From contig NC_088305.1 of the NCBI RefSeq assembly GCF_032854445.1, positions 25,196,628 to 25,260,627 on the forward strand: DNA of 64,000 bases, in the 5' to 3' direction. This DNA is from Liolophura sinensis (taxonomy: Eukaryota; Mollusca; Polyplacophora; Chitonida; Chitonidae). The translations under genes and the position numbers were made by a program. The notes below the pieces were generated by a model. The model worked only from the letters and a program-made list of their open reading frames with translations. It was not told the origin of the DNA and searched no databases. Position 1 is the first letter of the stretch. Every line of letters begins with the position of its first letter. Shown in pieces: positions 2,725 to 56,363 of this stretch.

Positions 2725-2819
2725 CTGCTGTCGATATCGAACGATATCTGTGTGTCAGTACTATCTTGAACAAAAATGTTGTCCTGGATGGAGTAAAAGA
2801 GGCAATCGCTGCGATGTTC
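2725..2819 (+). CDS. Gene 1 exon 1 in window: C-terminal half of EMI domain
   Basis: The acceptor is a T-rich tract ending TATAG and the donor is C|GTAAGT; start phase 2, end phase 1. The translation begins CCRYRTIS and contains KCCPGW followed by a further Cys, the hallmark end of an EMI domain, a small Cys-rich module of extracellular proteins often placed before EGF repeats. The equivalent exon of gene 2 (50123-50220) has QYCCPGW at the same place and is one codon longer. The N-terminal EMI half is not seen. A phase-2 signal-peptide exon such as those at 38.3 and 40.8 kb would splice in frame straight onto it. Confidence 0.83.
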
Positions 2820-2825
2820 GTAAGT

Positions 2826-2942
2826 AAAATAATAATAATAATAACAACAACAATAATGATACTAATACTAATAATAACAACAATAATAGCAATAACAACA
2901 ACAACAATAGCAATAATAATGATAATAATAATAATAATTCAA
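2826..2942. repeat. (AAT)/(AAC) microsatellite
   Basis: Imperfect trinucleotide run of AAT and AAC, immediately after the EMI exon donor. Confidence 0.9.
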
Positions 2943-3615: not shown

Positions 3616-3711
3616 CCATTTGCAAACCGAGGTGTTTCAACGGAGGAACCTGCAATTCTCCAAACAAATGCGATTGCCTTACTGGTTATAAGGGCGACCT
3701 GTGTGAAAATC
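3616..3711 (+). CDS. Gene 1 exon 2: EGF-like module 1
   Basis: Symmetrical phase 1-1 exon of 96 nt, acceptor TTTTCCAG, donor C|GTAAGC. It encodes ICKPRCFNGGTC then NKCDC, GYKGDLC: six cysteines with EGF spacing and the usual NGGTC and GY.G motifs. The gene 2 counterpart (50864-50959) has exactly the same length and Cys pattern. The exon could be skipped without changing the frame. Confidence 0.9.
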
Positions 3712-4332: not shown

Positions 4333-4428
4333 CCGTGTGTGCGTTCGAAAAGCCTTGTTATCCAGGCGTTTGCCACGGGAAATGTACCTGCACAAACAAC
4401 CATACTGGCGCCTCTTGCACAACCCTGA
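4333..4428 (+). CDS. Gene 1 exon 3: EGF-like module 2
   Basis: Symmetrical phase 1-1 exon of 96 nt with acceptor TCTCTTGCAG and donor A|GTAGGT. It encodes VCAFEKPCYPGVC then GKCTC and TGASC, six cysteines in EGF order. The gene 2 counterpart (52213-52317) is three codons longer in the C3-C4 loop. A SINE scrap ends about 25 nt upstream of the acceptor. Confidence 0.9.
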   Translation, partial: PCVRSKSLVIQAFATGNVPAQTTILAPLAQP

Positions 4429-4560: not shown

Positions 4561-5535
4561 TTGTCGACTTACTCATCTATCAAACGGTTTCTTGAATATA
4601 CTTGGCAAGACACGCAGATTTCTTTGAACGGAGTTAAAAATGAACGTACCCAAAATATATATGTATGAAATATGTAAGTAAAACACTAATGGAGTGCAAA
4701 ATAAGAAATAAATAAAGAGTTAAAGAAATACAGAATCCGATTTGCCAGGGTGGATAGGCAACATCGCTCATCAGTGTATTTGGCCCCATATTTAAATCTG
4801 CTATAACTATCACAGTGTGTTTGGTTTGGTTTCACCCTTCATGTCGTAGTCTTTTATATGATATACCTGCATAAGCCGAGATTCTGCTGGTGGACTAAGC
4901 ATCCCCGATGCATTGCTCCTTTGCATCGTTCGCTTCTTAAACGTAACCAAAACACAGCATTTTGGGGAAACCTACACCAGTAACATACCTTTTTAAACTT
5001 AATTCTCCTCAACCCATGGTTTTAGGGGTAGTTTAAGTGAGTTTTATTTAACATTTACATGAACAGTTAGAATAACACCCTCCATGTAACTGAGGTAAAT
5101 TGACGAAAGGCCTGATTTCACCGGTTACGTGTGAAAATCGCTGCATTAGTTTCACTCTCTATCCTGGTTCAACTGTACACTTGTATAAAGCAGGATTCTG
5201 AAGTTGAACTGAGAGTCGCCGAGGCTTGCTCCCTTTTATCGTTTTCGTGTAAATATTGATGAAATGCTTGCTTTCTCCACGTTCCATTGACAGAGATAAA
5301 ACCCTAACTGGGGTAGATAAACATGTGCAAACTATCGCACAAAAATCCTACCGCACTGTCGTCGCTGCTCTTGCTTTACTCTCCATGCTGTACTCTGTTG
5401 TACTATGTGCTGTGGTATCTCACTTATATGTGCTTTTACCGCAAATATGCTATCACCATAACACACATGGTAAAAAACCTAAATGTAAAACAATAAGCTT
5501 TCAATAAGAGTTTCTGTTCTTGTTTACCACTACAG

Positions 5536-5823
5536 AACCTACAGAGAAGCCAAGTATTCCCACAGCTTCCACCGTTATGTCTGTGATTGATGCTGAAACG
5601 TATCAGACCTACTACACCGTTATGACCAATGCCACTTTGGACAACGGGGAAGGCACCAACTCATTCTGGACCAACTTACAGTTTTTCAATCACGTCAATG
5701 TCACCTGGGACGCCAGGTACGAGCAAGAGGAAGACTACCCAGCACGACCGAATTACGTTCACGAGTTCAAATTTGGAATAGTTCAGGCCGAGGTCATTCT
5801 TCGTCACTCAAAACGGGATAGAG
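5536..5823 (+). CDS. Gene 1 exon 4: conserved ectodomain, segment a
   Basis: 288 nt, phase 1-1, acceptor CCACTACAG, donor G|GTAAGT. The protein opens with a Thr/Pro/Ser-rich linker (TEKPSIPTAST), then a conserved block with SFWTNLQFFNHVNVTW and FKFGIVQAEV. The gene 2 exon at 53593-53880 is also 288 nt and shares FWTNLYFFNRLNITW and VKFGIV. I do not recognise a named domain. One NATL and one NVTW sequon suggest N-glycosylation. Confidence 0.88.
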
Positions 5824-6270: not shown

Positions 6271-6406
6271 ATAAATGGATTGAAGCAAGTAAAACAACTA
6301 CCCCGTGTAAGGAAAATGAGATTTCATCTGCCGACCCAGAGGAAGGAATTCTGTCATGTCGCGTCGACGCCGGACGATTTCTGACTAGTCTTGAGCATGA
6401 AGACAT
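6271..6406 (+). CDS. Gene 1 exon 5: conserved ectodomain, segment b
   Basis: 136 nt, phase 1-2, acceptor TTAACAG, donor AT|GTAAGT. It encodes KWIEASKTTTPCKEN followed by GILSCRVDAGRF and LEHED. The two cysteines and the C.(V/L)DAGR..LEHED block are retained in gene 2 exon 57261-57396 of identical length. Named domain not recognised. Confidence 0.87.
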
Positions 6407-7790: not shown

Positions 7791-7995
7791 GTTGGATGTC
7801 ACAGTAAGATCAAAAAATGGTGGACAGGCAACTTTGGTCAAATTTGGACAGGGTAACAAGATACTGACCTACAATGGAACATGGACAGAGAAGGAGATGC
7901 AGTTCATGTTTGACTTTCGGGAACCTTTCCATTGCATTATGAACAAGACGTGCTTACACCTTCCCATCAGCATCAAGGGGCCGGATATCCGCAGG
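7791..7995 (+). CDS. Gene 1 exon 6: conserved ectodomain, segment c
   Basis: 205 nt, phase 2-0, acceptor GATGTTTCAG, donor AGG|GTGCGT. Encodes LDVTVRSKNGGQ, then TWTEKEMQFMFDFREPFHC and LPISIKGPDIRR. Gene 2 exon 58168-58372 has the same length, phases and the FREPFHC and GPDIR motifs. The donor context GTGCGT is conserved between the paralogues. Confidence 0.9.
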
Positions 7996-8305
7996 GTGCG
8001 TGCGCATACAAATGCATACAGTGTTACAATTTCTATTAATGTAACACAGCAATTACTAATCGTATTTTACGATAAGGAAAAAAAATTATGTAATCGGATC
8101 AATATAGAAAGAAATTCAAACTGTCAACTGTGAGTGATAAACCAATTTTCTATAGTGAAACTGTCATTTTACTCGTTTGCTTCATTCAAATGTAACTTCG
8201 ATTTTAATGCTATTTTGGACATATGGTGACGGTGCCGAATCGAGTAACGGCATCATTAAAGTAAAAGAAAGCTAAAATATAAAGGTAGGTTCAGCATACA
8301 ACTGA

Positions 8306-9208: not shown

Positions 9209-9424
9209 ACGGGGTTCACGATAAGGTGGCCTGGCTGGGAAGATTCTCTATCCGGGATAGAACGCTACATCTGGCGAGTCTTCCGGCTCAGGGCAGACGG
9301 GTACGGAAATCTGACGGAAGTAGGGGCGCCAGTGGCTTGGCAGCAGGCAAACGGAACGAATGCCGGAAACGAGATGGCTACCTTCACACCAGATGCGCCC
9401 GGAACATACTCAATCTATCTCCAG
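9209..9424 (+). CDS. Gene 1 exon 7: conserved ectodomain, segment d
   Basis: 216 nt, phase 0-0, acceptor TTATTTCAG, donor CAG|GTCTCT. Encodes TGFTIRWPGWEDSLSGIERY then WRVFRLRAD and ends PGTYSIYLQ. The WPGW.D.LSGIERY.WRVFRLRAD block is very well conserved in gene 2 exon 58666-58881, also 216 nt. Together with the start of the next exon, the layout resembles an Ig/FN3-type beta sandwich (GTY.IYLQVTD.A.NS), but this is inference. Confidence 0.9.
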
Positions 9425-10300
9425 GTCTCTTGTAGTAAATTCTCAGTATGCCCGCAACAGACTCTACATAGTTTCTCATTTACCACTTTTCTTCGACACT
9501 GCCATTATTTCAAAGACAGTTTGTCTTTTAACCCCAACAGTCCTATTTCCATAGTTTTACGCATGCGCATTGCACAACGTACGCTATATTTATATCGTTC
9601 CATTGAAGGACAGCGTTGATGAGATTTTTGTTGTGACGGGATGTGTTGTTCTTAGTCGATTGGTGCATTTGTTTAAATGCGCGTGCGTGGTCCCTGGGTT
9701 ATTTTTTCAGGTCTCCATGTGGCGTGAGGGCACTTCCACCCTCAGTGTTTTAAGGCGTTGTTCAAACACCACGATAAAACGTTGAGTTTTGAATCATGAT
9801 CACACGTGTTCGACTTATATCGGTTAGACACCCATTAGGTTAGGCAGGTATATTTTATTGCAAAGAGTGGCAGCTTAAACCGAGCTCCCCCAACTTTGTT
9901 ACATCAATGAGTTTATTTTTATTTCCAAGTAGGGCCAATTACATCCATAAAACGCGATAATTTTTTCCCGTACATGCATTTTTTAATATCTTTTAATTGA
10001 GAACTCTCACTATTGCATGTGTTAATATTTGTTGTGAATCGTTTAGTAGTAGATTGAAACCCCATAAACTAGTTCAAGACAAATATATTTCCAACAATCT
10101 AGTACACATTCAACGCCATCATTCTGGTTCCTTGGCGTATTCTGCGTGTCTTGAACGTAACTGACGTGATTAGCGTCATCTAAAGTGTACGTCAGTGGTA
10201 TTTGTATGTCTACAAACAAGACAGCAGACTAGGATTACATGCCCTTAACCCTGGTTTATATTTGCCAATGAAACTTATTTTCAACGGTACTATCTTCCAG
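9425..10300. other. Intron, no feature seen
   Basis: Gene 1 intron between the 216-nt and 647-nt exons. I see no repeat family or conserved block in it. Confidence 0.5.
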
Positions 10301-10947
10301 GTGACTGACAACGCCAATAACTCTCGATTCGCGAGGACTGTGGTTCTGTACGATCCAAGCAGTCAGGTAGAGATTAACAACTCAACTAATGCCAGACTAT
10401 TCGTCTCTAGTGGATCTCCAAAAGTCGATTTTCAGTGGCAAACAAACCTCACGTCGCCTATCGTCGTCACCTGGAAGAACCACTTCAAGAATGCCCTCCA
10501 CGAAGACAACAGTTTATTGAATAGAGTGCTTCCATTTCCCGGAAAGCTCTTTGTAGAAAGGGTTGGCGACAGGGACATAGTGGATGACAAACGCGTATCA
10601 GATGAATACGACGATCATAGCGGACAGAGGACAGTAGACGCTATACCGAATGTCCACGGTATCGTCAAGTTCGAAGTAGCACATAGGACAGACAATGTCC
10701 TGGGGACATCCTGTAATAAGCCACCAAACTCATGGACAGAGGTTTCCGACCCACTCAGCGAGGAGCACAGCTTTGACCTAGTCCGACAAGATGGATCCAC
10801 GGTGTGCATCTGGATCAAAGGGTCGGACATCCTTGGCAACTCTGAGACGGACATGACCTTAGTGAGCTTTGACAGCACGGAACCGGAACTGAATGCCCCA
10901 GAGCTGGAGAGGAATGTTGCTCCGGAAGGAGAGGCCTATTTCAGCAG
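10301..10947 (+). CDS. Gene 1 exon 8: conserved ectodomain, largest exon
   Basis: 647 nt, phase 0-2, acceptor TATCTTCCAG, donor AG|GTAAAG. Starts VTDNANNSRFARTVVLYDPS, contains WQTNLTSPIVVTW, LLNRVLPFPGK, VDAIPNVHGIVKFEVA and VCIWIKGSDILGN, and ends near EGEAYFSR. Several N-X-S/T sequons (NNS, NST, NLT) fit an extracellular location. Gene 2 exon 59614-60263 is one codon longer and aligns throughout. The open frame extends upstream of 10301, but paralogue comparison and the acceptor place the exon start here. Named domain not recognised; the (V/L)VLYDPSSQVEIN motif is the best search seed. Confidence 0.92.
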
Positions 10948-12062: not shown

Positions 12063-12180
12063 AATCGTGAGCCATGCGGTGGACGACGATAGCGGCATCA
12101 GAGAAGTAACATGGCGGATGATCAATACGGCCAACGATTTAGAGTTCGGAAGCGGTAGTTTCGACGCCCGTTGGAATCAG
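12063..12180 (+). CDS. Gene 1 exon 9: conserved ectodomain, segment f
   Basis: 118 nt, phase 2-0, acceptor CTTTGTCAG, donor CAG|GTAAAT. Encodes IVSHAVDDDSGIREVTWRM and ends near SFDARWNQ. The D.DSG(I/V)..(V/I).WRM core matches gene 2 exon 60990-61107, which has the same length. The preceding intron carries a 17-bp minisatellite. Confidence 0.86.
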
Positions 12181-13200: not shown

Positions 13201-13395
13201 GCTTGCCCCGGAACTTCACTGCAATGTGAATGTTCTCCTTCGAACACTGTCAACTGTTACTATCGACAGCTCAACGTGTACATTCCTCACTGTGCCATCA
13301 ATGTGTCCAAGAGCGAAGTTGCCTCCCTTACTGTCCGGGTCGAGATCGAGGCTATCAATAACGCTGGCCTTCGTTCGAAAATGAAAACTTTCCAG
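13201..13395 (+). CDS. Gene 1 exon 10: Cys-rich ectodomain segment
   Basis: 195 nt, phase 0-0, acceptor a long T/C tract ending CCTCTAG, donor CAG|GTAAAT. Encodes ACPGTSLQCECSPSNTVNCY, then VYIPHCAINVSKSEVASLTV and AGLRSKMKTFQ. Five cysteines and the (V/I)YIPHCAINV.K motif are shared with gene 2 exon 61726-61926, which is two codons longer near its start. Named domain not recognised. Confidence 0.89.
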
Positions 13396-13446
13396 GTAAA
13401 TAACCACTGTAACAGCGATAGCTTAGTGTAAACATACCATGATTAA

Positions 13447-14327: not shown

Positions 14328-14841
14328 CCAGAGGCACATTAATTTCACCATATTCCCCCGCAAACATGGGCTCCCCAACACCCGCCTGTCACAAAACAGC
14401 ACATGTTCCGCATACCCCAACACTGCTAGTCACGCCAGTAGCGCCTTCCCCATCCCCTCTTCACGGAGACAATGACCCCCAAGAGAAAGAAATTTCATTT
14501 TAATTCCTCTTTGCCAAACAAGTGAGATAATATTATGAAGTGGATCTAAACGCAACGTTTCGTTAACTTTTTAACTTGCATTTTACAAGATTTGGAGGTT
14601 TTTGTCGAGTGGAGAACCCACTGGTTCAGCTGAAACTTTCAGTCAAGAGGTTTGTCAAGAATTTGACAGGGAGCGGTGGTGGACTTACCATCCTCGTATA
14701 TAGTTAATAAACAAGGTGTTAAACACTATTAAAATAATGAAATCCAGTGAACATTAGTGTGGACATTGCCAACCATCAGATAAACATACTTTAGCTCCAT
14801 CAGATTTTTGAAACGTTTCTTTGTTTACTGACAACCACTAG

Positions 14842-15111
14842 ATGTCGCCCCAGTGCAGTTTGCATCTCGCGATATCACGTCCTCCTCGGCTACGATAACT
14901 TGGGACAACCCACCAAGCTGCTACAGTCTGACGGCCATCCAGGTGGCGTACAGGCCTGAAAACGGGGGACGACTCTACAACACCACCTCATTCAGGCTCA
15001 ACAAAGACGTGAGCCTAAACGCCCTGTACCGCTGCACCGATTACGTCATGTGGATTTCTAACATCTATGATAAAGAAGTTAGTGACCCCTCGGAATACAG
15101 GTTCACTACCG
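14842..15111 (+). CDS. Gene 1 exon 12: fibronectin type III domain
   Basis: 270 nt, phase 1-1, acceptor CAACCACTAG, donor G|GTGAGT. Encodes VAPVQFASRDITSSSATITW (classical FN3 start with the invariant Trp), then LTAIQVAYRPE and a YRCTDYVMWIS strand. About 90 residues, the usual length of one FN3 unit carried by one symmetrical exon. It is membrane-proximal, as in many receptor kinases. Confidence 0.88.
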
Positions 15112-16940: not shown

Positions 16941-17043
16941 ATGTCGAATGAATGCACACATTTAAATCCGATTATCCCTTTGTACTTATTATTTCCCGAA
17001 GCGAAATATTTGTCATTACGACTTTTTTTGTCAAATTCAACAG

Positions 17044-17210
17044 GTCTTCTGTTGCTTCTGGCTGTTATCGCCCTTTTGGTTTTTATCCTCGTACTCTGGA
17101 GAAGAGGTCAGCTGAGGTCAACTCTAGAACGCCGCTTCACTCGCGCAAGAACAATTCTCAGAAACAGAGTGCACAAGAATAGTCGTCGAGCGGTGCGGAC
17201 AACTTATTTC
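17044..17210 (+). CDS. Gene 1 exon 14: transmembrane helix and basic juxtamembrane region
   Basis: 167 nt, phase 1-0, acceptor AAATTCAACAG, donor TTC|GTAAGT. Starts LLLLAVIALLVFILVLWRRG, so the helix (with GIVIG from the previous exon) is followed at once by a positively charged stop-transfer stretch rich in Arg (LERRFTRARTILRNRVHKN). Ends VRTTYF, the only juxtamembrane tyrosine in this exon. This places the N terminus outside and the kinase-like domain in the cytosol. Confidence 0.9.
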
Positions 17211-18555: not shown

Positions 18556-18751
18556 AACAACATGAGCAAGGACGATGACTTGTACGTGTACGGGAACATG
18601 GCGTTTGACGGCCGCCAAAACTGGGCCTTGAACGGAAGTGACCTGGACTTACAGGAGATTGTGGCCGAGGGCAGATTTGCCCGGGTCTACAGGGCTGTAC
18701 TTCTGCAGGAAGGCTCCGCTTCGCAATCTGTGGCCGCCAAAATGCTGCTGC
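18556..18751 (+). CDS. Gene 1 exon 15: juxtamembrane end and kinase N-lobe start
   Basis: 196 nt, phase 0-1, acceptor TTATTTACAG, donor C|GTGAGT. Encodes a Tyr-containing linker (DDLYVYGNMAFDG), then LDLQEIVAEGRFARVYRA, the beta1-beta2 nucleotide loop. The normal G-x-G-x-x-G is A-E-G-R-F-A, so the first and third glycines are alanine. VAAKML keeps the beta3 lysine. This is the first of several departures from an active kinase. Confidence 0.9.
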
Positions 18752-19213
18752 GTGAGTCTGCCGTCTTCCCTACAGATCTCTCCCTTGTAAAAACAATCCC
18801 TGTTGTGATGGCCAGACATTTTGTTTCTTTGTCAGTCCAGCGTAACCAAAATCCAAGATCCTCCTTTGTAGATCAGGACATCAGTTTACTCCCACGCACA
18901 TATACCCTTTGCCAAAAAAAGAACAATCCATTGCTGTACAATTTTGAGTTGTTAAGTATAACGAGCATGACCACAAACAAACTGCCTTTGCACAAATCTG
19001 CCGTGACACTACCACGTTGTCATCGTCGTTTTATATTATTCCAATATGAAAGAATTAGTAAATATTTCCACTTCAGTCTACTGTCTCTTTCCTAGATCAT
19101 CCTCTCTATGTTAATGTGTGAGATATTTGCTACTGTTGTTGGGCTGACACAAAATTGGGCTTTTGTGTTGTTACATTGTTGTTATGTTCCTCTGTTGGCT
19201 GTTTTTGTTACAG

Positions 19214-19339
19214 CTACCAAGGCCTTTGACCAGAACGAACGATTACTGATGAATGCAAAGATTAATTTCATGGCATCGAACGACTTACGGCACGACAATG
19301 TAATACATTTTGTGGGCGCCATTACTGATGACGTAGACC
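19214..19339 (+). CDS. Gene 1 exon 16: kinase helix C to beta4
   Basis: 126 nt, phase 1-1, acceptor TTTTTGTTACAG, donor C|GTAAGT. Encodes TKAFDQNERLLMNAKINFMA then LRHDNVIHFVGA, matching the helix C and H.N(I/V)(I/V)..(L/V)G region of tyrosine kinases. In the natural alignment (NAKI against the usual EAKI) the helix C glutamate that pairs with the beta3 lysine is Asn. An extra three or four residues lie before LRHDNV, so the exact alignment is uncertain. Confidence 0.86.
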
Positions 19340-19649
19340 GTAAGTTTCAATGGGAAATTATTTTCGTTTTCCTGAAATAACACAGTTGCAGTGTGCATTC
19401 GGATACTCCGGTATCTTCATCCAACAAATAAATCTACAAACTTATCATACGTGAAGTGTGTTTGCGTACACCATCAAATCCAAAGCAGGTAAATCAGTCA
19501 CGTTAAGTTCAACCTAACCCCAACGCTAAGTTCTAAGCAAGGTGTCCAAAATACAGTTTATGTCATCATTTAGAAAAACAATATTTAAAGTCACATTGAC
19601 AAACAAAAGATTCATAAAAAAAATTAGTATCACTATCAGTTAAAAATAT

Positions 19650-20093
19650 AAGTATATTTTGATTGATTATAATTATAGCAGGATTAGCTTACGTCTTATA
19701 AGTATATTTTGGTTGATTATAATTGTACCAAGATTAGTTTACGTCTTGTAAGTATATTTTGGTTCATTATAATTGTAGCAAGATTAGCTTATGTCTTACA
19801 AGTATATTTTGGTTGATTATAATTGTACCAAGATTAGTTTACGTCTTGTAAGTATATTTTGGTTCATTATAATTGTAGCAAGATTAGCTTATGTCTTACA
19901 AGTATAGTTTGGTTGATTATAATTGTACCAAGATTAGTTTACGTCTTGTAAGTATATTTTGGTTCATTATAATTGTAGCAAGATTAGCTTATGTCTTACA
20001 AGTATATTTTGGTTGATTATAATCGAAGCAGGATTAGCTTAAGTCTGATAAGTATATTTTGGTTAATTATAGTTCTAGTAGGATTAGCGTACA
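19650..20093. repeat. 50-bp tandem array with alternating A/B units
   Basis: About nine 50-bp units (AAGTATATTTTGGTTGATTA...). The middle units alternate between a GTACCAAGATTAGTTTACG type and a GTAGCAAGATTAGCTTATG type, giving a 100-bp higher-order period. Intron between kinase exons 16 and 17. Confidence 0.9.
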
Positions 20094-20454
20094 TTAAACC
20101 CAACAGACACGTCGTGCAACAACACTCGTTGGCGTAATCTCGAATTTGGCCATGCCAAAGACAAAAACATCTTAGGCTTTTCTACGCTGTACCCCAGTGT
20201 TAAATATGTAATTAAGAGCTGATACATTTTCAGTATATGTTGTGCCTTTGTTGGGGTGTGATATATGATAACGTTGCCATGGCGATGTAGTGAAGTAGCA
20301 GTAAAGCTATCGGTACCGTATTTCACCTAAAGTTTAGCATTTTTCAGATTTTTACATTTTGCTTCATTCTTTTTTTAAACATCATTTATAAATAAATAAA
20401 TAAAAATGGCGATGGGATCCATGAGTACATGACTGCGCAATGGTGTTCTAAAGA

Positions 20455-20562
20455 TGACGCATATCGGATTCCCAGAAGAATCGTACTTGAGATGGTCTTC
20501 CTGTGGATGGTCGTGGGTTTCTTCCCAGCATAATGCTGACCACAAAAATCAAATAAATAAAT
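20455..20562 (+). mobile_element. SINE A 3' fragment
   Basis: GTGGATGGTCGTGGGTTTCT, CAGCATAATGCTGACC, then AAATCAAATAAATAAAT. Confidence 0.6.
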
Positions 20563-20856
20563 ATTATGATATTATGAAATGGCCAAACGATATCCAAAAC
20601 GAGGTTGTGACTGAAACAAACAAATAAACGGGAAAGGTACTGGGGTCAGTTTCATGAAGAGTAGTTATTGTTAAGGTGTTCTTAGCTATGTACACTTCAT
20701 AAATCTACAACACGAGCTGTCATGGGAGCAAAGGCTTACTTGAAACTCATATAGACTCATCAGGAGTTACGCCCCTTTGATCTGGGCACGGGGAATGTGG
20801 GATTAAGGTTGGGGTTCGTGTCCGTCTGGGTTTAATCGCGGCATTGTGTTGGACAG

Positions 20857-21017
20857 GAGGCCCAATCATGTTGCTGGAATTCTGTGAGATGGGCCCCTTG
20901 AAAACCTGGCTGACCAATCAGAGGAATCAGGGCAGAGTGTCTGAGGATGTCGTGGATAGGCTGTTTTACATCGTCTATGAGGTCGCCAAGGGAATGGAGT
21001 ACCTCGCCTCTAGAGAT
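20857..21017 (+). CDS. Gene 1 exon 17: kinase hinge to helix E
   Basis: 161 nt, phase 1-0, acceptor GTTGGACAG, donor GAT|GTAAGT. Encodes GPIMLLEFCEMGPLKTWL, the hinge and helix D, then LFYIVYEVAKGMEYLASRD, the helix E that leads into the catalytic loop. The acceptor has a weak pyrimidine tract, but the phase and protein fit are exact. Confidence 0.87.
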
Positions 21018-21091
21018 GTAAGTCTAGGCGTGGGATTTCATGTCGCAGAACAAACACTTCACTTCTGTTGTAACACTGAAGTGTTTGTGTA

Positions 21092-21345
21092 CACTGAAAA
21101 ACTTAATCTGTTAATTTTAACAGATCATCTGTTGTCTGAGAGATGATAGAATGTATTCTGTTATTATAAATAATACGGTATACTGTCATATTCAACATAA
21201 TATTCTATTAGTCTAATAGAATCTTCACGTTGAATTAATAGAATACGTGTTATATTTAGCAGAATAATCTGTTGCAATAACAGAATACATTCTAGTATCA
21301 CTCAGACAACTTTCTGTAAAATTTTACTTTGGAGAGTACCACCCT
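21092..21345. mobile_element. MITE-like element, copy 1
   Basis: Inverted termini include TAGAATGTATTCTGTTATT (21147-21165) and its exact reverse complement AATAACAGAATACATTCTA near 21276-21294. Outer arms run TACACTGAAAAACTTAATC to a degenerate AGAGTA end, fitting a TA target. It is related along its length to 53145-53402. No coding capacity. Confidence 0.72.
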
Positions 21346-21985
21346 TGTCCTTTATGAGCACACATAAACCGAATATTGTGATCATCGCTAACAAAGAAAC
21401 AAAAGAACACATTGGTTTACAACGTATTGTTCAAGGCGGGAAGATATTTTACGAGCATTCATTTGACAAGACTTATCCTTTCACCTGAAGTTAAGGAAAC
21501 ATGTATTCAATTCAAAGTATCGCATTCCCTAATAGAATAGTTCTGATTTTCTCGGTTTATTCATTCAATATTGAACAACACTGTGAATCAGACGAGTATT
21601 CATAGAAGGTTAATGTGACTTTTTGGAAGCAAAGACAATAGTTGATGTAATTCTGCAACTTTAGTATAAAGAACATAAACATTTTCATTAATGTGAGAAA
21701 GTGTTATTTAAATCTATCCCAGCGATGTCCCTTGATGTGGCTTCCATTGTCTTTCATGATATCAGCACAAGAGTACTTTACTCATTGTATATAACCACAT
21801 AGATCCTAAAAGCTCGGCCTTTGTTAGATTTCTTATATTTTATTTATTTGTTGTTTAACGCCATGCCTTGGTAAACTTACTTCTTTTGGCAACTTTCTGA
21901 CGTGTGACATACTGATCCCCAACATTGGTGGATGACACACTGGAGATGAGAATGAACTAAAACATTCCATGAATTTCCCTTTTAG

Positions 21986-22108
21986 ATTGTGCACCGGAAG
22001 TTGGCGGCCCGTAACATCCTGTTGGACTTTAATCTCCATCCGAAGATCATCGGCTTCGGCCCGGTACCGGACGAGCTGGCAGACGACGCGGACAACACGA
22101 CCAAAGGG
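21986..22108 (+). CDS. Gene 1 exon 18: degenerate catalytic loop and DFG region
   Basis: 123 nt, phase 0-0, acceptor CCCTTTTAG, donor GGG|GTATAA. Encodes IVHRKLAARNILL, where the catalytic HRD Asp is Lys (codon 21998-22000, AAG). It then reads KIIGFGPVP, where the DFG Asp is Gly (codon 22052-22054, GGC). LAARN is otherwise perfect for a receptor tyrosine kinase. The activation loop that follows (DELADDADNTTKG) is acidic and has no tyrosine. Loss of both catalytic aspartates predicts no phosphotransfer. Confidence 0.92.
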
Positions 22109-22319
22109 GTATAACTCTTACAGCTCTCTGTCCCTTTTTGTCTCTCTTGTGTGCCACTCGGGACATTCTGCATCTTTGTCTTTTCTTTGTTTCTTTGCCC
22201 GTCTCTGTTTATGTTTTCCTGTCTACAACCTGCACATTTCCGGGATCTCCTATCATCTGTATTCGTCTTTACATATCTTCGTTTTTTATACATTATAAAA
22301 AAAACTATATGCACATTTT

Positions 22320-24372
22320 AGTCCGGGTAGATGTGACACTTTGGACCAGCAATGGCTGCGCAGTGTTGTCTGGGGAACATTTAGCCTGGATAGATTTGAG
22401 ACTTTGGGGAACATTTGGTCTGGGTAGATGTGACGCGTTGTCTGTCTGGGGAACATTTGGTCTGGGTAAATGTAAAACTTTGTCTGGGTAACATTTAGCC
22501 TGTGTAGATGTGACACTTTGTCTGAGGAACATTTAATCTGTGTAGATGTGAAACTTTGTTTGGGGAACATTTGGTCTGGTTAGATGTGACGCGTTGTCTG
22601 TCTGGGGAACATTTGATCTGGGTAAATGTGAAACTTTGTCTGGAGAACATTTGGCCTGGGTAGATGTGATACTTTGGACCAGTAATGGCTGCGCAGATGT
22701 GAAACTTTGTCTGGGTAACATTTAGCCTGTGTAGATGTGAAACTTTGTCTGGGGAACACTTGGTTTGGGTAAATGTGACACTTTGTCTTGGGAACATTTG
22801 GTCTGGGTAGATGTGATACTTTGTCAGGGGAACATTTGGTCTGGGTAAACGTGAAACTTTGGAACAATAATGGCTGCACGGTGTTGTCTGGGTAACATTT
22901 GGTCTGTAAAGATGTGAAACTTTGTCTGGGGAACATTTGATCTGGGTAGATGTGATACTTTGTCTGGGGAACATTTAGTTTGGGTAGATGTGACACTTTG
23001 GACCAATAATGGTTGCACGGTCTGGGTAACATTTGGTCTGGGTAGATGTGATACTTTGTCTGGGGAACATTTGGTCTGGGTAGATGTGATACTTTGTCTG
23101 GGGAACATTTAATCTGTGTAGATGTGAAACTTTGTTTGGGGAACATTTGGTCTGGTTAGATGTGACGCGTTGTCTGTCTGGGGAACATTTGATCTGGGTA
23201 AATGTGAAACTTTGTCTGGAGAACATTTGGCCTGGGTAGATGTGATACTTTGGACCAGTAATGGCTGCGCAGATGTGAAACTTTGTCTGGGTAACATTTA
23301 GCCTGTGTAGATGTGAAACTTTGTCTGGGGAACACTTGGTTTGGGTAAATGTGACACTTTGTCTTGGGAACATTTGGTCTGGGTAGATGTGATACTTTGT
23401 CAGGGGAACATTTGGTCTGGGTAAATGTGAAACTTTGGAACAATAATGGCTGCACGGTGTTGTCTGGGTAACATTTGGTCTGTAAAGATGTGAAACTTTG
23501 TCTGGGGAACATTTGATCTGGGTAGGTGTGATACTTTGTCTGGGGAACATTTAGTTTGGGTAGATGTGACACTTTGGACCAATAATGGTTGCACGGTCTG
23601 GGTAACATTTGGTCTGGGTAGATGTGATACTTTGTCTGGGGAACATTTGGTCTGGGTAGATGTGATACTTTGTCTGGGGAACATTTGGTCTGGGTAGATG
23701 TGACACTTTGGGCCAATAATGGCTGCACGGTGTTGTCTGGGTAACATTTGGTCTGTGTAGATGTGAAACTTTGTCTGAGGAACATTTGGTCTGGGTAGAT
23801 GTGATACTTTGTCTGGGGAACATTTGGTCTGGGTCTGTGTAGATGTGAAACTTTGTCTGGGTAGCGTTAAGTCTGGGTAGATGTGAAACTTTCTCTGGGT
23901 AACATTTGGTCTGGGTAGATGTGACACTTTGTCTGAGGAACATTAAGCCTGTGTAGATGTGACACTTTGTGTGAGGAACATTTGGCCTGTGCAGATGTGA
24001 AACTTTGTCTGGGGAACATTTAGCCTGGGTAGATGTGACACTTTGTCTGGGGAACATTTAATCTGTGTAGATGTGAAACTTTGTTTGGGGAACATTTGGT
24101 CTGGGTAGATTTGACACTTTGTCTGGGGAACATTTGGCCTGTGTAGATGTGAAACTTTGTCTGGGGAACATTTAGCCTGGGTAAATGTGAAACTTTGTCT
24201 GGGGAACATTTAGTCTGGGTAGATTTGACACTCTGTCTGGAGAACATTTGGTCTGGGTAAATGTGAAACTTTGTCTGGGGAACATTTGGTCTGGGTAGAT
24301 GTGACACTTTGGACCAATAAATGGCTGTACGGTGTTGTCTGGGGAACATTTAGACTGGCTAGATGTGAAGCT
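22320..24372. repeat. 38-bp minisatellite array, about 2 kb
   Basis: Units are variants of TCTGGGGAACATTTGGTCTG followed by GGTAGATGTGATACTTTG, interspersed with longer units carrying GACCA(G/A)TAATGGCTGC. Long minus-strand frames are by-products. Lies in the intron between kinase exons 18 and 19. Confidence 0.93.
22526..23680. repeat. Near-exact 576-bp internal duplication in the 38-bp array
   Basis: 22526-23101 recurs at 23102-23677 with only a few substitutions seen (for example GTAAACGTG/GTAAATGTG and GGTAGATGTG/GGTAGGTGTG). This indicates a recent block duplication on top of the 38-bp period. Confidence 0.85.
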
Positions 24373-24989
24373 ATATGTGCCACTGAAACTTTGCATTCCT
24401 CTCGGTTAATCCAAAAAAGATAAACATAATTAAAATGATTATATTTCCATTTTACTGACAAATAGCACATGCATGTATTTACAGCTAATGAAAGAACATT
24501 TGTCAACTGAACACGTAAACGTAATTGGCATTTTGCTTACAAACACAAGTGGGGTCGAGTTAAAAACTTTTTTTCGCTAAAAAATAAAAAAAGCGATCTG
24601 CATCATGTGCATTGTCTATAATACTAAGCAATTTTTGTCGACATTAACTTACAGATCGCCTGTCTTCCTGTGTACCGGAAAAACAACTAGCACCTGTTAC
24701 CGTCACAGACTTCTTAGATGGTACAACTTTCCAAGTATAGTTGGATCAGTGTCGTTTTCTGGTCTGCATCTTACATCCAAGGGATTCGTTTTGCTTCGCC
24801 TAATTCCATGAAAGCCCCAGTGCTAGGTGGAATTGTGGACAGCTAGAATGCACGTATTTAAATGTGCACTCTTAAAAAAATTCCAGACCAAAGGGGGATA
24901 TATACATTGTTTTTATATATACTATTCCGATCACTGTCTGGAAGATACAAGGTAAATTTATTATCATCACCTTTTGTCATTATCTATAG

Positions 24990-25110
24990 GAACGGCTCCC
25001 TCTAAAATGGATGGCAGTGGAACTGGTGAAGGCTAAATCAACGAAGCATTCCAACGAGAAGACGGACGTCTGGTCCTATGGTGTCGTGGTGTGGGAAGTA
25101 TTCAGCCTGG
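24990..25110 (+). CDS. Gene 1 exon 19: kinase P+1 loop to helix F
   Basis: 121 nt, phase 0-1, acceptor TTATCTATAG, donor G|GTGAGT. Encodes [11 protein letters not shown], the tyrosine-kinase signature LP.KWMAPE with Pro replaced by Val, then [16 protein letters not shown], an intact helix F motif. The exon is flanked in both introns by the same 38-bp minisatellite, and its 3' end resembles the repeat unit. Confidence 0.92.
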
Positions 25111-25117
25111 GTGAGTA

Positions 25118-25525
25118 TCATAAGGAACATTTAGTCGGGGTAGATGTGATTTGTCTGGGAAACATTTGGTCTGGGTAAATGTGAAACTTTGGAACAATAA
25201 TGGCTGCACGGTGTTGGGTAACATTTAGTCTGGGTAAATGTGATACTTTGTCTAGTTAACATTTAGCCTGGGTAGATTTGTTACTTTATCTGGGGAACAT
25301 TTGGTCTGGGTAAATGTGAAACTTTGTCTGGGGAACATTTGGTCTGGGTAAATGAGACACTTTGTCTGGCGAACATTTAGTCTGTGTAAATCTGGCACAT
25401 TGGGAACAATTATTCTGACTAGATGTAACACTTTGTTTGGGGAACATTTAGTCTGACTAGATGTGACACTTTGTTTGGGGAACATTTAGTCTGAGTAGAT
25501 GTGACACTTTATCTGGTGAACATAC
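25118..25525. repeat. 38-bp minisatellite, second array
   Basis: Same unit family as 22320-24372, now in the next intron, starting just after the donor of kinase exon 19. Confidence 0.9.
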
Positions 25526-25775
25526 CCATCCATAAAGTTCCAGTCATATTTGTTATTTGTACACGGATTTTTTTATCAGAATTTCTGTTTTAACTGGAGA
25601 ACATCGTTTGGAAGAATGCATTCACATATGTACAAGCATAATTTCCGTGTGCTGATGTTTTGTGGATAATCCTGTTATGCTTTTAAAATTTATGCTTTAA
25701 AGTTTAAAGTTTATTCTCTAACCGGTGCGAACAAAATTGCAATGTACTGATATATGCTCTTTTGTCTTTCATCAG

Positions 25776-25869
25776 GCGAAGCCCCATATTCCAAGATAAA
25801 GGGGGGAGAATTGTCAAAGAAGCTGACCCAAGGTTACAGGCTTCCAAGGCCGGAGTTTATGACGGACGA
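25776..25869 (+). CDS. Gene 1 exon 20: kinase C-lobe
   Basis: 94 nt, phase 1-2, acceptor TCTTTCATCAG, donor GA|GTAAGT. Encodes EAPYSKIKGGELSKKL then GYRLPRPEFM, the G..PY......E....L..GYRLP.P block found in most receptor tyrosine kinases. Confidence 0.9.
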
Positions 25870-26169
25870 GTAAGTATATGCTGCCCATGCTACAGAGCAG
25901 TTTATCGTTATGATCATGTACCCATTAAGGGCTTTAAGTGATTTTAAATATTCAAGTCTTGGAACAAGGCGATTCCCAAGATGTATTACTCATTTTTACT
26001 GTGTGTACCAAGCAAAACGGAGAAACAAAACTGGTGTAGCGATTTAGGTCGGTTTTCACTCTTCTCCCTAAATATCTCAGTGTATATCTTTTGTTGCCTT
26101 TTCTGTTAAGCAATCTGTTAAGTCTTCGTATGCATTATAACAGATTAGATCTCAATTAATGATCCGAAG

Positions 26170-26565
26170 GTGGTTCTCCTATTGTGCCTTCATGGTTCCT
26201 CTGTTGTGCCTTCATGTCCTTTATTATGTCTTCGTGGTGTCCTCAGTTGTGCTTTCATGACTTCCTCTATTTGAGGTCTAAGGACTCCTTCGTCCTCATA
26301 TGATTGAAACATTGTTAAGTACGACGTTAAATCCTAAGTACTCATTCACTCTACTGTGCATTCATGGTTTCCTCTATTGTGCCTTCATGGTGTCTTCTAT
26401 TGTGCATTCATGGTTTCTTATTGTGTGCCTCCTTGGTTTCCTCCATTATATACTCCGTTGTGCTTTCATAGTTTTCTCCTCTGTGCCTTCATGGTTTTCC
26501 CTATTGTGCCTCCATGGTTTCCTCTGTTGTGTCTTCATATTTTCCTCTACAGTGCCTCCATGATT
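26170..26565. repeat. Tandem repeat of about 22-27 bp, irregular
   Basis: Units like CCTCTATTGTGCCTTCATGG plus TTT; interrupted by a SINE B 3' fragment at 26274-26352. Confidence 0.8.
26274..26352 (+). mobile_element. SINE B 3' end inside minisatellite
   Basis: GTCCTCATATGATTGAAACA, TTAAGTACGACGTTAAATCC and ACTCATTCACTC tail. Confidence 0.65.
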
Positions 26566-26595
26566 TCCTTCGCTCATAAACCTGAACACATTGGT

Positions 26596-26655
26596 TTACG
26601 TTGAATGTTTTTTGAGTACGTCATAAAAACCGAATCCGTTAAACAATAAATTAAA
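26596..26655 (+). mobile_element. SINE A 3' tail fragment
   Basis: TTTTTTGAGTACGTCATAAA followed by an AT-rich AATAAATTAAAT tail, directly before the last exon. Confidence 0.5.
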
Positions 26656-26672
26656 TTAGAGGCTCCCTTCAG

Positions 26673-26823
26673 GTACGACAAATTGACTAAGAGATGTTGG
26701 AATCAGATGCCAGAGGATCGACCCAGTTTTGTAAAGCTGGTTAAGGAGCAGTCGGCTTTGTTCGACAGCAGCGGGAAACACTCATCCTACTACGACAGCA
26801 GCCACCTGAAGAACTACTACTGA
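26673..26823 (+). CDS. Gene 1 exon 21: last kinase exon, C-terminal tail and stop
   Basis: 151 nt, acceptor GCTCCCTTCAG, phase 2 to TGA at 26821-26823. Encodes YDKLTKRCWNQMPEDRPSF, the C-W......RP.F motif that closes a tyrosine-kinase domain, then a short tail ending SSYYDSS...LKNYY. The tail has four tyrosines in two YY pairs, possible docking sites if phosphorylated by a partner kinase. Confidence 0.92.
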
Positions 26824-50863: not shown

Positions 50864-50959
50864 CCGTCTGTCTGCCGCAGTGTTACAACGGAGGCACTTG
50901 CCAAAGTCCAAACAAGTGCCTTTGCCCGGTAGGCTTTAATGGCGACCTTTGCGCAAACC
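50864..50959 (+). CDS. Gene 2 EGF-like module 1 exon with mutated splice acceptor
   Basis: 96 nt, phase 1-1, donor C|GTAAGT. Encodes [12 protein letters not shown] then NKCLC and GFNGDLC, six cysteines aligning one for one with gene 1 exon 3616-3711. The expected acceptor AG at 50862-50863 reads AA (TTTCAACC against TTCCAGCC in gene 1). Upstream AGs in phase lead to an in-frame TAG at 50839-50841, and the CAG at 50878-50880 would shift the frame. The exon may be skipped (in frame), or the base may be an allele or sequencing error. Confidence 0.72.
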
Positions 50960-51267
50960 GTAAGTAGAGGCCAATGAAGTTTTGGGAGATGCCATTTGTT
51001 TTATTTCGTTGGATTTTTGCACTGACCTCAATAATATTTCACCTCTCGGTCGGTAGGAAAACCCCATTTCTCTGGTCAGACGCTGGGTTCAAACATGAGA
51101 CAGCTTTGGCCCGGAGGCTGTCATCTGTATAGGTAGTCAATTGTTTAGACAATCCTGTGAAGAGAACTCGCTGGTTCGATCGGTTTAAAGGTTTGTCGCA
51201 AGTAATCTTCTCTTGATTTATAAGACCCGAATTCAGCCCTCGCCAGATGGGTTTCGGTCCTGTGTAC

Positions 51268-51780
51268 TGGCGACGGGCGGTGGTTTATTGTCCTGTGTAC
51301 TGTCGACGGGCGGTGCTTTAATGCCCTGTGTACTGGCAAAGGGCGGTGGTTTACTGCCTGTGTACTGGTGACGGGCGGTGGTTTACTGTCCTGTGTACTG
51401 GCAACGGGCGGTGGTTTACAGTCTGTGTACTGGCGACGGGCGGTGGTTTACTGCCTGTGTACTGGTGACGGGCGGTGGTTTACTGTCCTGTGGACTGGCG
51501 ACGGGCTGTGGTTTACTGTCCTGTGTACTGACAACGGGCGGTGGTTTACTGTCCTGTGTACTGGCAGCGGGCAGTGGTTTACTATCCTGTGTACTGGTGA
51601 CGGGCGGTGGTTTACTGTCCTGTGGACTGGCGACGGGCAGTGGTTTACTGTCCTGTGTACTGGCAACGAGCAGTGGTTTACTGTCCTGTGTACTGGCGAC
51701 GAGCGGTGGTTTACTGTCCTGTGTACTGGCAACGGGCGGTGATTTACTATCCTGTGTTCTCGTGGCTGGCGGTGGTTTAC
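51268..51780. repeat. 33-bp minisatellite, about 15 copies
   Basis: Unit GTGGTTTACTGTCCTGTGTA CTGGCGACGGGCG. GC-rich for this window; open on both strands because 33 is divisible by three. Confidence 0.92.
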
Positions 51781-51851
51781 CCCAGGATCAAGAAACCCTG
51801 TTTCTGATAGTGCCATGTTTGAAATTGTTCCCAAGTTTTACTATAATATAA

Positions 51852-52019
51852 CCTCCGGTCGTACTTGGGAAGATCTGCAGTAACCTGCGGGTGATCATGG
51901 GTTTCCCCCTGGGTTTGCCCGGTTTCCTCCCACCATAATGCTGGCCGCCGCCGTATAAATCAAATATTCTTTAGTACGGCGTAAACCACCAATCAAATAA
52001 ATAAATAAATAAATAAATA
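51852..52019 (+). mobile_element. SINE A 3' part
   Basis: CCTCCGGTCGTACTTGGGAA to TAGTACGGCGTAAACCACCA plus AAATAAAT repeats. Confidence 0.8.
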
Positions 52020-52212
52020 TTATAATGTAACCTTAATTTCGCGGTTGCGTATTAACAACTTAATTTTATCTCTTGTTGCTATATAATCCTTCGGCATTTC
52101 AAGTGAAAAAACAGGCCATAGAATAACCTCCTAACTATACAGGAAAACGTATAGTTTTTTTTTAATCACAGTTCATATTCTTACACAGAGTGTATGTCTT
52201 TTTCATAAACAG

Positions 52213-52317
52213 CGCTGTGCTCCTACCTCAAACCCTGCTACCCTGGCACCTGCGGTGCAAACACTGACGATTGTACGTGTACACATGGATTTAACGGAGC
52301 CTCCTGCCTTACATTTG
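52213..52317 (+). CDS. Gene 2 EGF-like module 2 exon
   Basis: 105 nt, phase 1-1, acceptor CATAAACAG, donor G|GTAAGT. Encodes LCSYLKPCYPGTC then DDCTC and GFNGASC, six cysteines. Three codons longer than the gene 1 exon, all in the C3-C4 loop. Confidence 0.88.
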
Positions 52318-52361
52318 GTAAGTGTATCAATAATTATTTGAAAGGAGTCTTCAGCTCTCGA

Positions 52362-52585
52362 TAGGGCCTCCGTGGTCGAGGTGGTTCGCGTACTTGTGTT
52401 CAAGTTCAACTCATGCTAGCTTTCTTTCCGACCGTGCGTGGGAAGATCTTCCAGCCAGCTGCGGATGGCCAATAGTTCCCCCAGGCTCTTGTCGGTTTCC
52501 TCTCATCATAATGCTGGCAGCCGTCGCACAAATGAAGTATTCTTGAGGACGGCGTAAAACACCTATCAAATAAATTAACAAATTC
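52362..52585 (+). mobile_element. SINE A with internal deletion
   Basis: Starts AGGGCCTCCGTGGTCGAGGT, lacks part of the head, ends GACGGCGTAAAACACCTATC and AAATAAATTAAC. Confidence 0.78.
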
Positions 52586-52707
52586 AGCTGTCGAAGACTA
52601 GACAGTTCCGCTCAGGGAACGGGGACGATATTACAAGTGTAAGAAGGTACTGTTCTCAGCAAAACCCAGTCCCGAAGGTCGGTGGTTTATATACTCCGGA
52701 CAATCCA

Positions 52708-52849
52708 GGGCCCACATCCACAAAATTTCGTACATCCACTTTTCGTAACTTTTCTCGTAAATGCCTTAAGGCACTATTTCCCAGACAACCTGTTTTGCGA
52801 AAAAAAAGTTACGAGAAACACAACTTACATAATTTTGTGAAAGTGGCCT
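52708..52849. mobile_element. Small foldback (MITE-like) element
   Basis: GGGCCCACATCCACAAAATT at the left pairs with the complement of AATTTTGTGAAAGTGGCC at the right, and TTTTCGTAACTTTTCTCGTAA pairs imperfectly with the complement of a GTTACGAGAAA segment inside. About 140 bp, no coding. Confidence 0.6.
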
Positions 52850-53104
52850 CTGGTCTTGTAGTTTGACTTGTAGTTGATTGAATAAGAAAATGCGCAGTGA
52901 ATCACTTACATGACAAACCGGTATATCTTTTTCCAGTGTCCCGGCTGTTGCCTTACCAACTTTCGGAAAAGATTAGTTTCAATTAACTATTTAATTGTAG
53001 AAATTTCATTTATTAATCTCCTTCACAGTTGTCTTGTCCAGCTCTCACATTGGGTCAGCAGTGTTGTTACACTTAAACAAGACTCGACAGTTCCGCTAAG
53101 TGTT

Positions 53105-53133
53105 GGTTTTGCTGAACTGTTTTAGAGCCTGGA
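53105..53133 (+). repeat. 29-bp copy of the exon 53593 acceptor region
   Basis: GGTTTTGCTGAACTGTTTTA GAGCCTGGA recurs exactly at 53572-53600, where it spans the true acceptor and first 8 exon nt. Used as an acceptor, this upstream copy would soon reach a stop. Confidence 0.88.
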
Positions 53134-53144
53134 ACAGTGTTGTT

Positions 53145-53402
53145 ACACTTAAAAAAAAGAATATCTTAATTTTAATAGAAAGTATGTTGTTTGAGTGATA
53201 GTCGAATACATTCTGTTATAACACAATATTCTGTCATATTGAACATAATAATTTGTTAGTCTAATAGAATCTTAATGTTAAATTAATAGAATATCTGTGT
53301 TATATTTAACAGAACAATCTGCTGCAATGACAAAATACATTCTAGCATCACTCAGATAACAGACTTTCTATTAAATTTAACAGTTTATTTTTTTTTAGTG
53401 TA
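53145..53402. mobile_element. MITE-like element, copy 2
   Basis: Inverted termini TACACTTAAAAAAAAGAATA and the complement of a TTTTTTTTTAGTGTA end, with an inner pair (TTGTTTGAGTGATA against TATCTGAGTGATGC). Termini CACT...AGTG within TA dinucleotides fit a Tc1/mariner-type MITE. Related to 21092-21345. Confidence 0.72.
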
Positions 53403-53592
53403 GGGTTTTAGATTTATGATAACGTACCGTAAATCGTCTCCCAGACATTTCGGCCATTAGACTGGCTCTCTGATAACTCAATCACGAAGTTGTTTAAACG
53501 GAGAATTAGGGTATATTTTATCAGTAAGTGGTTGAGTGATCAGTTCTTATGTTATGAGCGGAACCATGAATGGTTTTGCTGAACTGTTTTAG

Positions 53593-53880
53593 AGCCTGGA
53601 GAGCAGCCGGAAGTACCTACAGCACAGACGGTCATGTACGTGGTTGACCCTGCAACTTCCGAGCTGTTTTACTCCATAGAGACGGACGCCACATTTCCTG
53701 GAGGGGGCAGGTCGGAGGTGTTCTGGACAAACCTCTACTTTTTCAATAGATTAAACATCACATGGGAAAGTTACTACGCCAGTAGAACTGATTTACCTCC
53801 CCTCCCTAGTTACATCACTGATGTAAAGTTTGGAATAGTTGAATCCCAAGCGGAAGTACTTCACGTGAAAAGACAAGGAG
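53593..53880 (+). CDS. Gene 2 ectodomain exon a
   Basis: 288 nt, phase 1-1, acceptor AACTGTTTTAG, donor G|GTGAGG. Encodes TVMYVVDPATSELFYSIETD, then EVFWTNLYFFNRLNITW and VKFGIVESQAEV. Same length as gene 1 exon 5536-5823. A 29-bp copy of its acceptor region also occurs at 53105-53133. Confidence 0.89.
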
Positions 53881-54071
53881 GTGAGGTTTTAAACAATAAT
53901 ACTAGTTCTTCGTATTCATATGTCCGACGATGTTTTATACTTATTCTTGGGTTTTGGTTGATTCACTGATTGAGTCGTTAAACCTACCGTCGTCGACTCC
54001 GCCAGTCCGATCTGATTCATTTCGTGTCAATATGATGGCCTGTAAGGGTCACAGTATGCCCCCAGTAATAT

Positions 54072-54225
54072 CAAGGGCGGTTTAGCGAAGAGACGATAAC
54101 GCGAAGTTAGGATTGGAAGAGGCGAAGACGCGATGCAACTCTGCCTCTTTGTATTGTAACTTCGGATTGTCATCTCTTCACCCCTTCACAACGCAACTTT
54201 GCCTCTTCGCTTCATCGCCTTTAAT
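54072..54225. repeat. GCGAAGAGG-type inverted repeat
   Basis: TTTAGCGAAGAGACGATAAC at the left and the complement of a CAACTTTGCCTCTTCGCTTC stretch at the right; internally repetitive. Possible small foldback element. Confidence 0.45.
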
Positions 54226-54288
54226 TTTGTCAACATTTTTTTAGAAATGTCAACATTAGATCTAACAAAATAAATATCATTTTGGCGC

Positions 54289-55735: not shown

Positions 55736-56360
55736 GACGGCGCGGTTATCCTTATGTACATATCTATCGCGTACATGGTAGTTACACAGATGGCGCTGCT
55801 TGCCGAGTGTAACCAGTTGTCTTGTGGACAGATTTTATACAGACTAGCATGTCATGTGTAACATCACGGATACCGCCTCTTGTAGTATGAGACCCTTACA
55901 TATTAACGGGATAGAAGTAATCGTCCGTTACTTTTGAATCACAATCTGTTCGGTTAAGTTCTGTAACGCTCGTCTTTTTCGAACTGTATCTAATACCGAT
56001 CAACCTGGGGCGATCGGCTGTAAAGGCTTATTACATCTGCATGATGCCTTTATAAACAGTTGCCATTAAAGCACGACTGAGATACCTTGTGTAATTGTAA
56101 TTTGACATGGAACTCATTCATGTACTGCGAATTTGAACTTTGATATGGAATTGATGCTTGGTATATCAACTGTCTGCCCAGCATCATTGAAAACTGATGA
56201 CCGCTTCTCTCTTGTGTATTACCGGCTTTATTTCCCATTTTTATAATTTCTTACATACCTTTGTCTTTGGGAGCTAGTGTTAAACGTTGTATTGGAAATA
56301 GATCTTGCGATTATCGACTTGGAACGCCCTTTACTGACTTTTCGGCATTTTCTTATCTTA
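55736..56360. other. Intron, nothing recognised
   Basis: Sequence after the RT relic, possibly its 3' untranslated part; no motif seen. Confidence 0.4.
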
Positions 56361-56363
56361 TTG

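Follow-up and report, generated by a model that had tools for sequence, protein, structure and literature searches.

The window analysed here is a 64,000-nucleotide stretch of the chiton Liolophura sinensis (contig NC_088305.1, hereafter C11, positions C11:25196628-25260627), and at 18556-26823 it holds the kinase exons of a receptor-like gene that we name gene A; its paralogs are named B and C, and a partial copy is named D. When the seven kinase exons of A (K1-K7, Table 1) are spliced they give a single open frame of 323 residues, with AG before and GT after each exon save the last, which closes with the stop codon TGA at 26823; a preliminary description of this DNA had claimed a frame open to the stop, and the seven-exon join is indeed uninterrupted. 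The domain is of the tyrosine-kinase type, matching Pfam PF07714 at 6.2e-64 and 216 bits (cut-off 23) with 25 residues lying C-terminal to the match, and the best 60 PDB matches listed for it are receptor tyrosine kinases, bar one row titled only 'Tyrosine-protein kinase'. Much of the K4-K5 intron is made up of a 38-base tandem repeat (about 51 copies, 22366-24311), and about 8 copies of the same repeat lie in the K5-K6 intron (25215-25523).

The preliminary description had also listed a series of catalytic losses, most of which are borne out when the codons are recomputed from the exon starts: Lys at 21998-22000 gives HRK for HRD, Gly at 22052-22054 gives GFG for DFG, and Val at 25017-25019 gives AVE for APE. 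AEGRFA, in which two loop glycines of GxGxxG are gone, sits in K1 as claimed, and the beta3 Lys, LAARN, KWM and DVWSYG, which were held to be intact, are all present in the joined frame. The claim that the helix C Glu had become Asn stands in its first half, with neither Glu nor Asp at the site in any alignment, but the identity of the replacement depends on the alignment, being Asn79 (MAFFT, EGFR alignment), Ala80 (VEGFR2) or Lys81 (FGFR vs paralog C); position 79 is Asn in A and Lys in B and C, and Lys81 is invariant in all three. Among the residues that hold the fold together in kinase anatomy are the His of HRD, the Phe of DFG, the Glu of APE, the Asp of DVWSYG and the Arg of DRP, and A retains every one of these. 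Its loss set comprises the HRD Asp, the DFG Asp, the helix C Glu and the two loop glycines, and, read from sequence, this is a kinase fold predicted to be incapable of the ordinary mechanism. An active enzyme that dispenses with both aspartates through some unusual, for example metal-independent, mechanism would fit the survival of the beta3 Lys in A and C and of the catalytic-loop Asn in all three genes, and PMC2686265 reports CASK and IRAK2 to be active without canonical motifs; we nevertheless consider this very doubtful, with the whole of the above set gone and no activation-segment tyrosine found between GFG and the KW/RW motif in A, B or C.

Upstream of the kinase lie eleven exons with a homolog in B, plus one probable exon; the search did not reach a 5' end of the gene. 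The last of these exons, whose transmembrane segment was called by sequence reading from a hydrophobic stretch, has a phase-0 end and is in frame with K1. Nine single ectodomain frames and a hand-joined 888-residue draft of A were compared with Pfam, and the EGF_2 and fn3 matches exceed their cut-offs on single frames but not in the joined draft. The predicted ectodomain has a pair of EGF-like modules, a fibronectin type III (FN3) domain, for whose exon no acceptor passed the splice scan, and seven exons whose modules are uncharacterised. The probable exon with the CCPGW motif has a putative EMI-like end; Pfam gave no EMI match. The largest ectodomain exon was folded from A and from B, at a mean predicted local distance difference test score (pLDDT) of 45, too poor for a structure search.

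Table 1. Exons of gene A and the positions of its copies (positions are those of the window unless prefixed by C11).
Feature	Position	Strand	Basis and remarks
A, probable exon, CCPGW motif	2725..2827	+	open frame and acceptor; borders approximate
A, EGF-like exon 1	3616..3711	+	EGF_2 barely above cut-off on single frame; splice borders; homolog in B
A, EGF-like exon 2	4333..4428	+	EGF match weak, below cut-off; homologs in B, C
A, ectodomain exon, no known domain	5529..5823	+	homologs in B, C; start approximate
A, ectodomain exon	6271..6406	+	splice borders; homolog in B, none seen in C
A, ectodomain exon	7791..7999	+	homologs in B, C; end approximate
A, ectodomain exon	9209..9434	+	Y_Y_Y and PKD matches weak, below cut-off; end approximate
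A, largest exon of the ectodomain, no known domain	10301..10947	+	three genome matches: A, B, C
A, ectodomain exon	12063..12180	+	homologs in B, C
A, ectodomain exon	13201..13408	+	homologs in B, C
A, fibronectin type III exon	14835..15111	+	fn3 above cut-off (single frame); copies in B, C; start approximate
A, transmembrane and juxtamembrane exon	17002..17210	+	hydrophobic stretch LLLLLAVIALLVFILVL; copies in B, C
A, kinase exon K1	18556..18751	+	DDDLYVYGNM juxtamembrane motif, AEGRFA loop, beta3 Lys
A, kinase exon K2	19214..19339	+	helix C region; no acidic residue at Glu site
A, kinase exon K3	20857..21017	+	hinge up to stretch preceding catalytic loop
A, kinase exon K4	21986..22108	+	HRKLAARN, GFGPVPDEL
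A, kinase exon K5	24990..25110	+	KWMAVE, DVWSYG
A, kinase exon K6	25776..25869	+	AG/GT borders, joined frame
A, kinase exon K7	26673..26823	+	tail YYDSSHLKNYY, then stop
B, nine ectodomain exons	span 50869..61935	+	matches to A exons
B, exon matches 1-5	50869-50964, 52212-52313, 53592-53873, 57257-57397, 58163-58381	+	
B, exon matches 6-9	58666-58884, 59617-60264, 60988-61113, 61735-61935	+	
B, kinase	C11:25263824-25273408	+	own-genome kinase search
C, kinase	C11:25124584-25132849	-	own-genome kinase search; 82 kb from A kinase
D, partial copy	C11:27674609-27677872		own-genome kinase search; transmembrane-like piece and K1-K3

The copies were located by a kinase search of the animal's own genome (609,464,459 bases, 632 contigs), and eleven ectodomain and transmembrane pieces of A were also compared with them. 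Every one of the eleven has a match in B, nine of these matches falling within the window, while the FN3, transmembrane and kinase exons of B lie beyond the window end; C matches nine, with no match to EGF-like exon 1 or to the small exon at 6271..6406 in the stretches read. D matches the transmembrane piece weakly and shows no K4-K7 within 4 kb after K3. C, like A, is open across all seven kinase exons, and identity is 80% for A-B and 60% for A-C. From K1 to K7 the exons measure 196, 126, 161, 123, 121, 94 and 151 bases in A and 196, 123, 161, 114, 121, 94 and 148 in C, and B departs from the lengths of A at K1 (200) and K7 (148). An artefact of assembly or of the gene model, such as the joining of exons from different genes, might be entertained given the HiFi coverage of 14x stated in PMC11068029, and the insertions and deletions seen in B could be errors; this is an exceedingly improbable account of A, however, as seven exons with matching junctions and identical losses recur at two other places on C11, and the A-C differences in exon length are all multiples of three. 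In the intron of C that follows K5 (C11:25127211-25127781) there are repeated short pieces like the K5 end (VWSYRVVVWEIVSLG), as if part of an exon had become an intronic tandem repeat. An intron of B (54274-55724) carries broken frames resembling reverse transcriptase (MDTNSAPLLADLFLFSYEYD), which presumably belong to a retroelement.

HRK and GFG are common to A, B and C, in each case with PVPDEL following, from which we conclude that the catalytic loss is older than the duplications and that the domain has been retained long after its catalytic residues were lost. AVE is private to A and most simply arose there, because B and C have APE; Asn79 would likewise be a later change in A if C is the outgroup. 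In the genome as a whole the HRKLAARN codon pattern occurs three times, these being A, B and C, while HRDLAARN occurs 28 times, a minimum number of intact kinases, as the pattern misses variants such as HRDLATRN; reversed-pattern controls returned zero for both. The preliminary description had raised the prospect of transcripts using other, intact exons, and the HRDLAARN pattern is absent from C11 (HRDLATRN-type variants were not looked for), so that no exon with that intact motif is available for splicing. Searches of the genome with the ectodomain turned up no additional gene bearing the distinctive modules of A, and none that combines this ectodomain with an intact kinase; five other matches involved nothing but the EGF part. 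Within the scope of these searches, the family would appear to be without an active member in this genome.

The preliminary description had supposed that selection retained the fold and not catalysis. For K2-K7 of A and B (256 codons; K1 was excluded because of the insertions and deletions in B), the Nei-Gojobori method (NG86) gives a nonsynonymous rate (dN) of 0.143, a synonymous rate (dS) of 1.97 and a dN/dS of 0.072 (bootstrap 0.038-0.128; 428 of 500 replicates computable), and maximum likelihood (ML) gives 0.084. Over ten ectodomain and transmembrane exon pairs (778 codons, the second EGF exon and the CCPGW exon being excluded) the ratio is 0.188 by NG86 and 0.202 by ML. As dS is near saturation these A-B ratios are approximate, although both still fall far below 1. 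The ratio of uncorrected proportions (pN/pS), a measure that avoids the saturation correction, is 0.187 for the kinase (bootstrap 0.135-0.248) against 0.369 for ectodomain plus transmembrane exons (0.322-0.416), and the difference exceeded zero in 1000 of 1000 bootstraps. Among K2-K7, pN is lowest (0.043) in K4, the exon encoding GFG and the dead catalytic loop, its pS of 0.443 also being the lowest, and K4 shares with K5 the highest A-B identity among them (90%). As the losses are shared by the paralogs, purifying selection acted on a domain already devoid of its aspartates, and this domain has been under strong purifying selection since the duplications; the shared HRK and GFG, together with a dN/dS of 0.07-0.08 that is nowhere near 1, uphold the earlier supposition. 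A decaying pseudogene that by chance is still open could draw upon the damaged appearance of B, the reduction of D to a transmembrane-like piece and K1-K3, and the loss in A alone of the Pro of APE. It is highly improbable all the same, for besides dN/dS, replacements counted with C as outgroup are equal in A and B (13 and 13, with 25 sites undecided), which argues that B was constrained like A until recently, and in a crude neutral simulation none of 2000 runs remained stop-free at any of four divergences.

Comparison with known receptor pseudokinases is aided by the table of eight human examples in PMC13259870, the source of the following statements about them. None of the eight has HRK, and in none do losses at both HRD and DFG go together with an intact beta3 Lys and an intact loop Asn. 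HER3 (ErbB3) resembles A in keeping the beta3 Lys and the catalytic-loop Asn and in having lost the HRD Asp and the helix C Glu, and it is described as a substrate of EGFR that recruits PI3K; unlike A, which lost the DFG Asp and two glycines, it keeps DFG and GxGxxG. EphA10 is nearest in the HRD and DFG motifs, having lost the HRD Asp (HRG) and carrying GFG for DFG, but its beta3 Lys (VAVH) and its loop Asn (to His) are gone while GxGxxG and the helix C Glu are kept, the opposite of the pattern in A. STYK1, compared from the table only, shares an altered DFG (GLG) and the loss of the helix C Glu (Arg) but retains the HRD Asp (HKD). PTK7, ROR1/2 and RYK constitute pseudokinase-only families, as the chiton family appears to be in its genome, but their HKD loops keep the aspartate where A has HRK. 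The best single-domain structure matches are to the VEGFR/FGFR/PDGFR/Kit receptors (VEGFR2 when A or the profile is compared, FGFR3 when C is), whose catalytic residues, unlike those of A, are intact.

HER receptors are marked by L domains and furin-like repeats, Eph receptors by an ephrin-binding domain and SAM, and Tie receptors by a Tie-type kinase together with Ig, EGF and FN3 domains. Neither the nine single ectodomain frames nor the joined draft of A gave a Pfam match to the HER/ErbB domains; the ephrin-binding domain and SAM were likewise without a Pfam match in A, the FN3 that Eph receptors share being present, and the hallmark ectodomain domains of ROR, PTK7 and RYK are absent among its Pfam matches. 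Of the Tie domains, A has EGF and FN3, with no Ig match; our tree included no Tie sequence. That tree (18 rows) groups A, B and C at 99/99 on a stem of 1.18, against tips of 0.12-0.44, and places them in no known kinase family; the long stem suggests that the family diverged far before the duplications, without indicating its parent family. Support for A+B within the tree is only 80/53, and the position of C as outgroup therefore rests mainly on identity. Gene A does show several attributes of the general class of receptor tyrosine pseudokinases, namely a tyrosine-kinase-type domain, an in-frame transmembrane segment, aspartate losses and selective retention.

A grouping of A, B and C with a degenerate kinase on C1 (93/87) was discounted, the C1 branch (2.23) and the stem both being long. 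A degenerate receptor-kinase-like gene lies at C1:78695000-78702000, with a catalytic loop reading NVDLAADTVL, GMV at the DFG position and WRYG for WSYG by eye; there is a second match at C1:78682163, and dead kinases may thus have a further lineage here.

In the juxtamembrane stretch, A carries the tyrosine motifs TYFNN and DDDLYVYGNM, and C carries TYVNN and DDDLYIYGNM; the transmembrane stretch, YxNN and YGNM are thus common to both, the YxNN of C spanning an inferred exon junction. We take YxNN and YGNM to fit the docking patterns pYxN (Grb2) and pYxxM (PI3K). Taken together, the retained fold residues, the juxtamembrane motifs and the precedent of HER3 make a receptor that aids an active partner the best reading: we put at roughly 65% the probability that A is a receptor pseudokinase of a family without active member in this genome, acting as a scaffold or allosteric partner. 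The direct basis for this is the sequence, the paralogs, the shared losses, the constraint and the conservation of the motifs in A and C; from these we infer the ligand, the partner, the phosphorylation and the docking. The single-pass receptor would bind ligand by its ectodomain and pair with an active kinase, for which the pseudokinase domain would serve as an interaction surface or allosteric activator, and the partner would phosphorylate TYFNN and DDDLYVYGNM, whereupon YxNN and YGNM would dock Grb2 and PI3K. A would in this way supply its partner with phosphorylation sites, a docking surface and the binding of ligand, working in a HER3-like manner without HER family membership. It could be supposed instead that A is a decoy or ligand sink, whose function lies in the ectodomain alone, with the kinase fold serving as a passive anchor. 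The ectodomain is retained (11/11 pieces in B, 9/11 in C) where catalytic residues are gone, as a decoy would have it, yet we judge this unlikely, given that constraint on the kinase exceeds that on the whole ectodomain (0.07-0.08 vs 0.19-0.20) and that the juxtamembrane tyrosine motifs are retained in A and C.

The case for a partner-aiding receptor pseudokinase is not without difficulty, and several observations weigh against it. K1 of B carries +1, +2 and +1 bases relative to A and then stops in frame, the YGNM stretch of B is out of frame, and the end of its transmembrane exon appears to be so as well, such that the copies are not all intact; either recent pseudogene formation or errors of assembly may account for the state of B. 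The tyrosine motifs of A and C lie in a generally conserved stretch, and their conservation is therefore no specific proof. The FN3 exon, with a pN/pS of 0.187, equals the kinase in constraint (the remaining nine pairs range over 0.280-0.492), and the contrast in constraint thus holds only against the ectodomain as a whole. For A-C and B-C, dS is saturated and NG86 yields no dS for either pair; the ML ratios of 0.041 (dS 7.0) and 0.120 (dS 2.7) are not relied on. Last, PMC2686265 reports activity for proteins in which one or more of these residues are missing: CASK, and IRAK2, which is without both motifs.

An additional and rather speculative proposal, which we consider unlikely, is that the active site of A has turned from acidic to basic, and that its pocket could hold ATP or a phosphate ligand without metal, making a ligand-gated switch. 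The three carboxylates on which Mg-ATP binding and catalysis depend would have given way to Lys (HRD), Gly (DFG) and possibly Lys81 (helix C, if equivalent), with the beta3 Lys kept, and the output of the switch would pass via the juxtamembrane tyrosines, metal-free binding being as in STRAD-alpha. STRAD-alpha and the rhoptry pseudokinases are neither receptors nor members of the tyrosine-kinase group. In STRAD-alpha, Arg215, His200 and Lys197 contact the ATP phosphates without Mg2+, so that basic residues stand in the active site as the Lys does in A (PMC2686265), and the rhoptry kinases carry HGX, with X often basic, at the HRD position, comparable to the Lys of A (PMC4718504).

Elsewhere in the window, a 75-base tandem array at 43083-46105 (40 copies, 95% match), probably a satellite, has a minus-strand frame that stays open over 1019 residues, which a period divisible by three permits.

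In the literature searched, which leaves most subscription journals outside, no full text contains the letters HRKLAARN and none joins pseudokinase and chiton, a scope that leaves room for an earlier description of the family; by term count, the word pseudokinase is absent from the main text of the oyster kinome paper. All three full copies of this chiton gene appear to be dead as kinases, yet selection has constrained the dead domain more than the ectodomain taken as a whole. As such, a mollusc family with a different set of losses would offer an independent test of why the kinase fold is kept.

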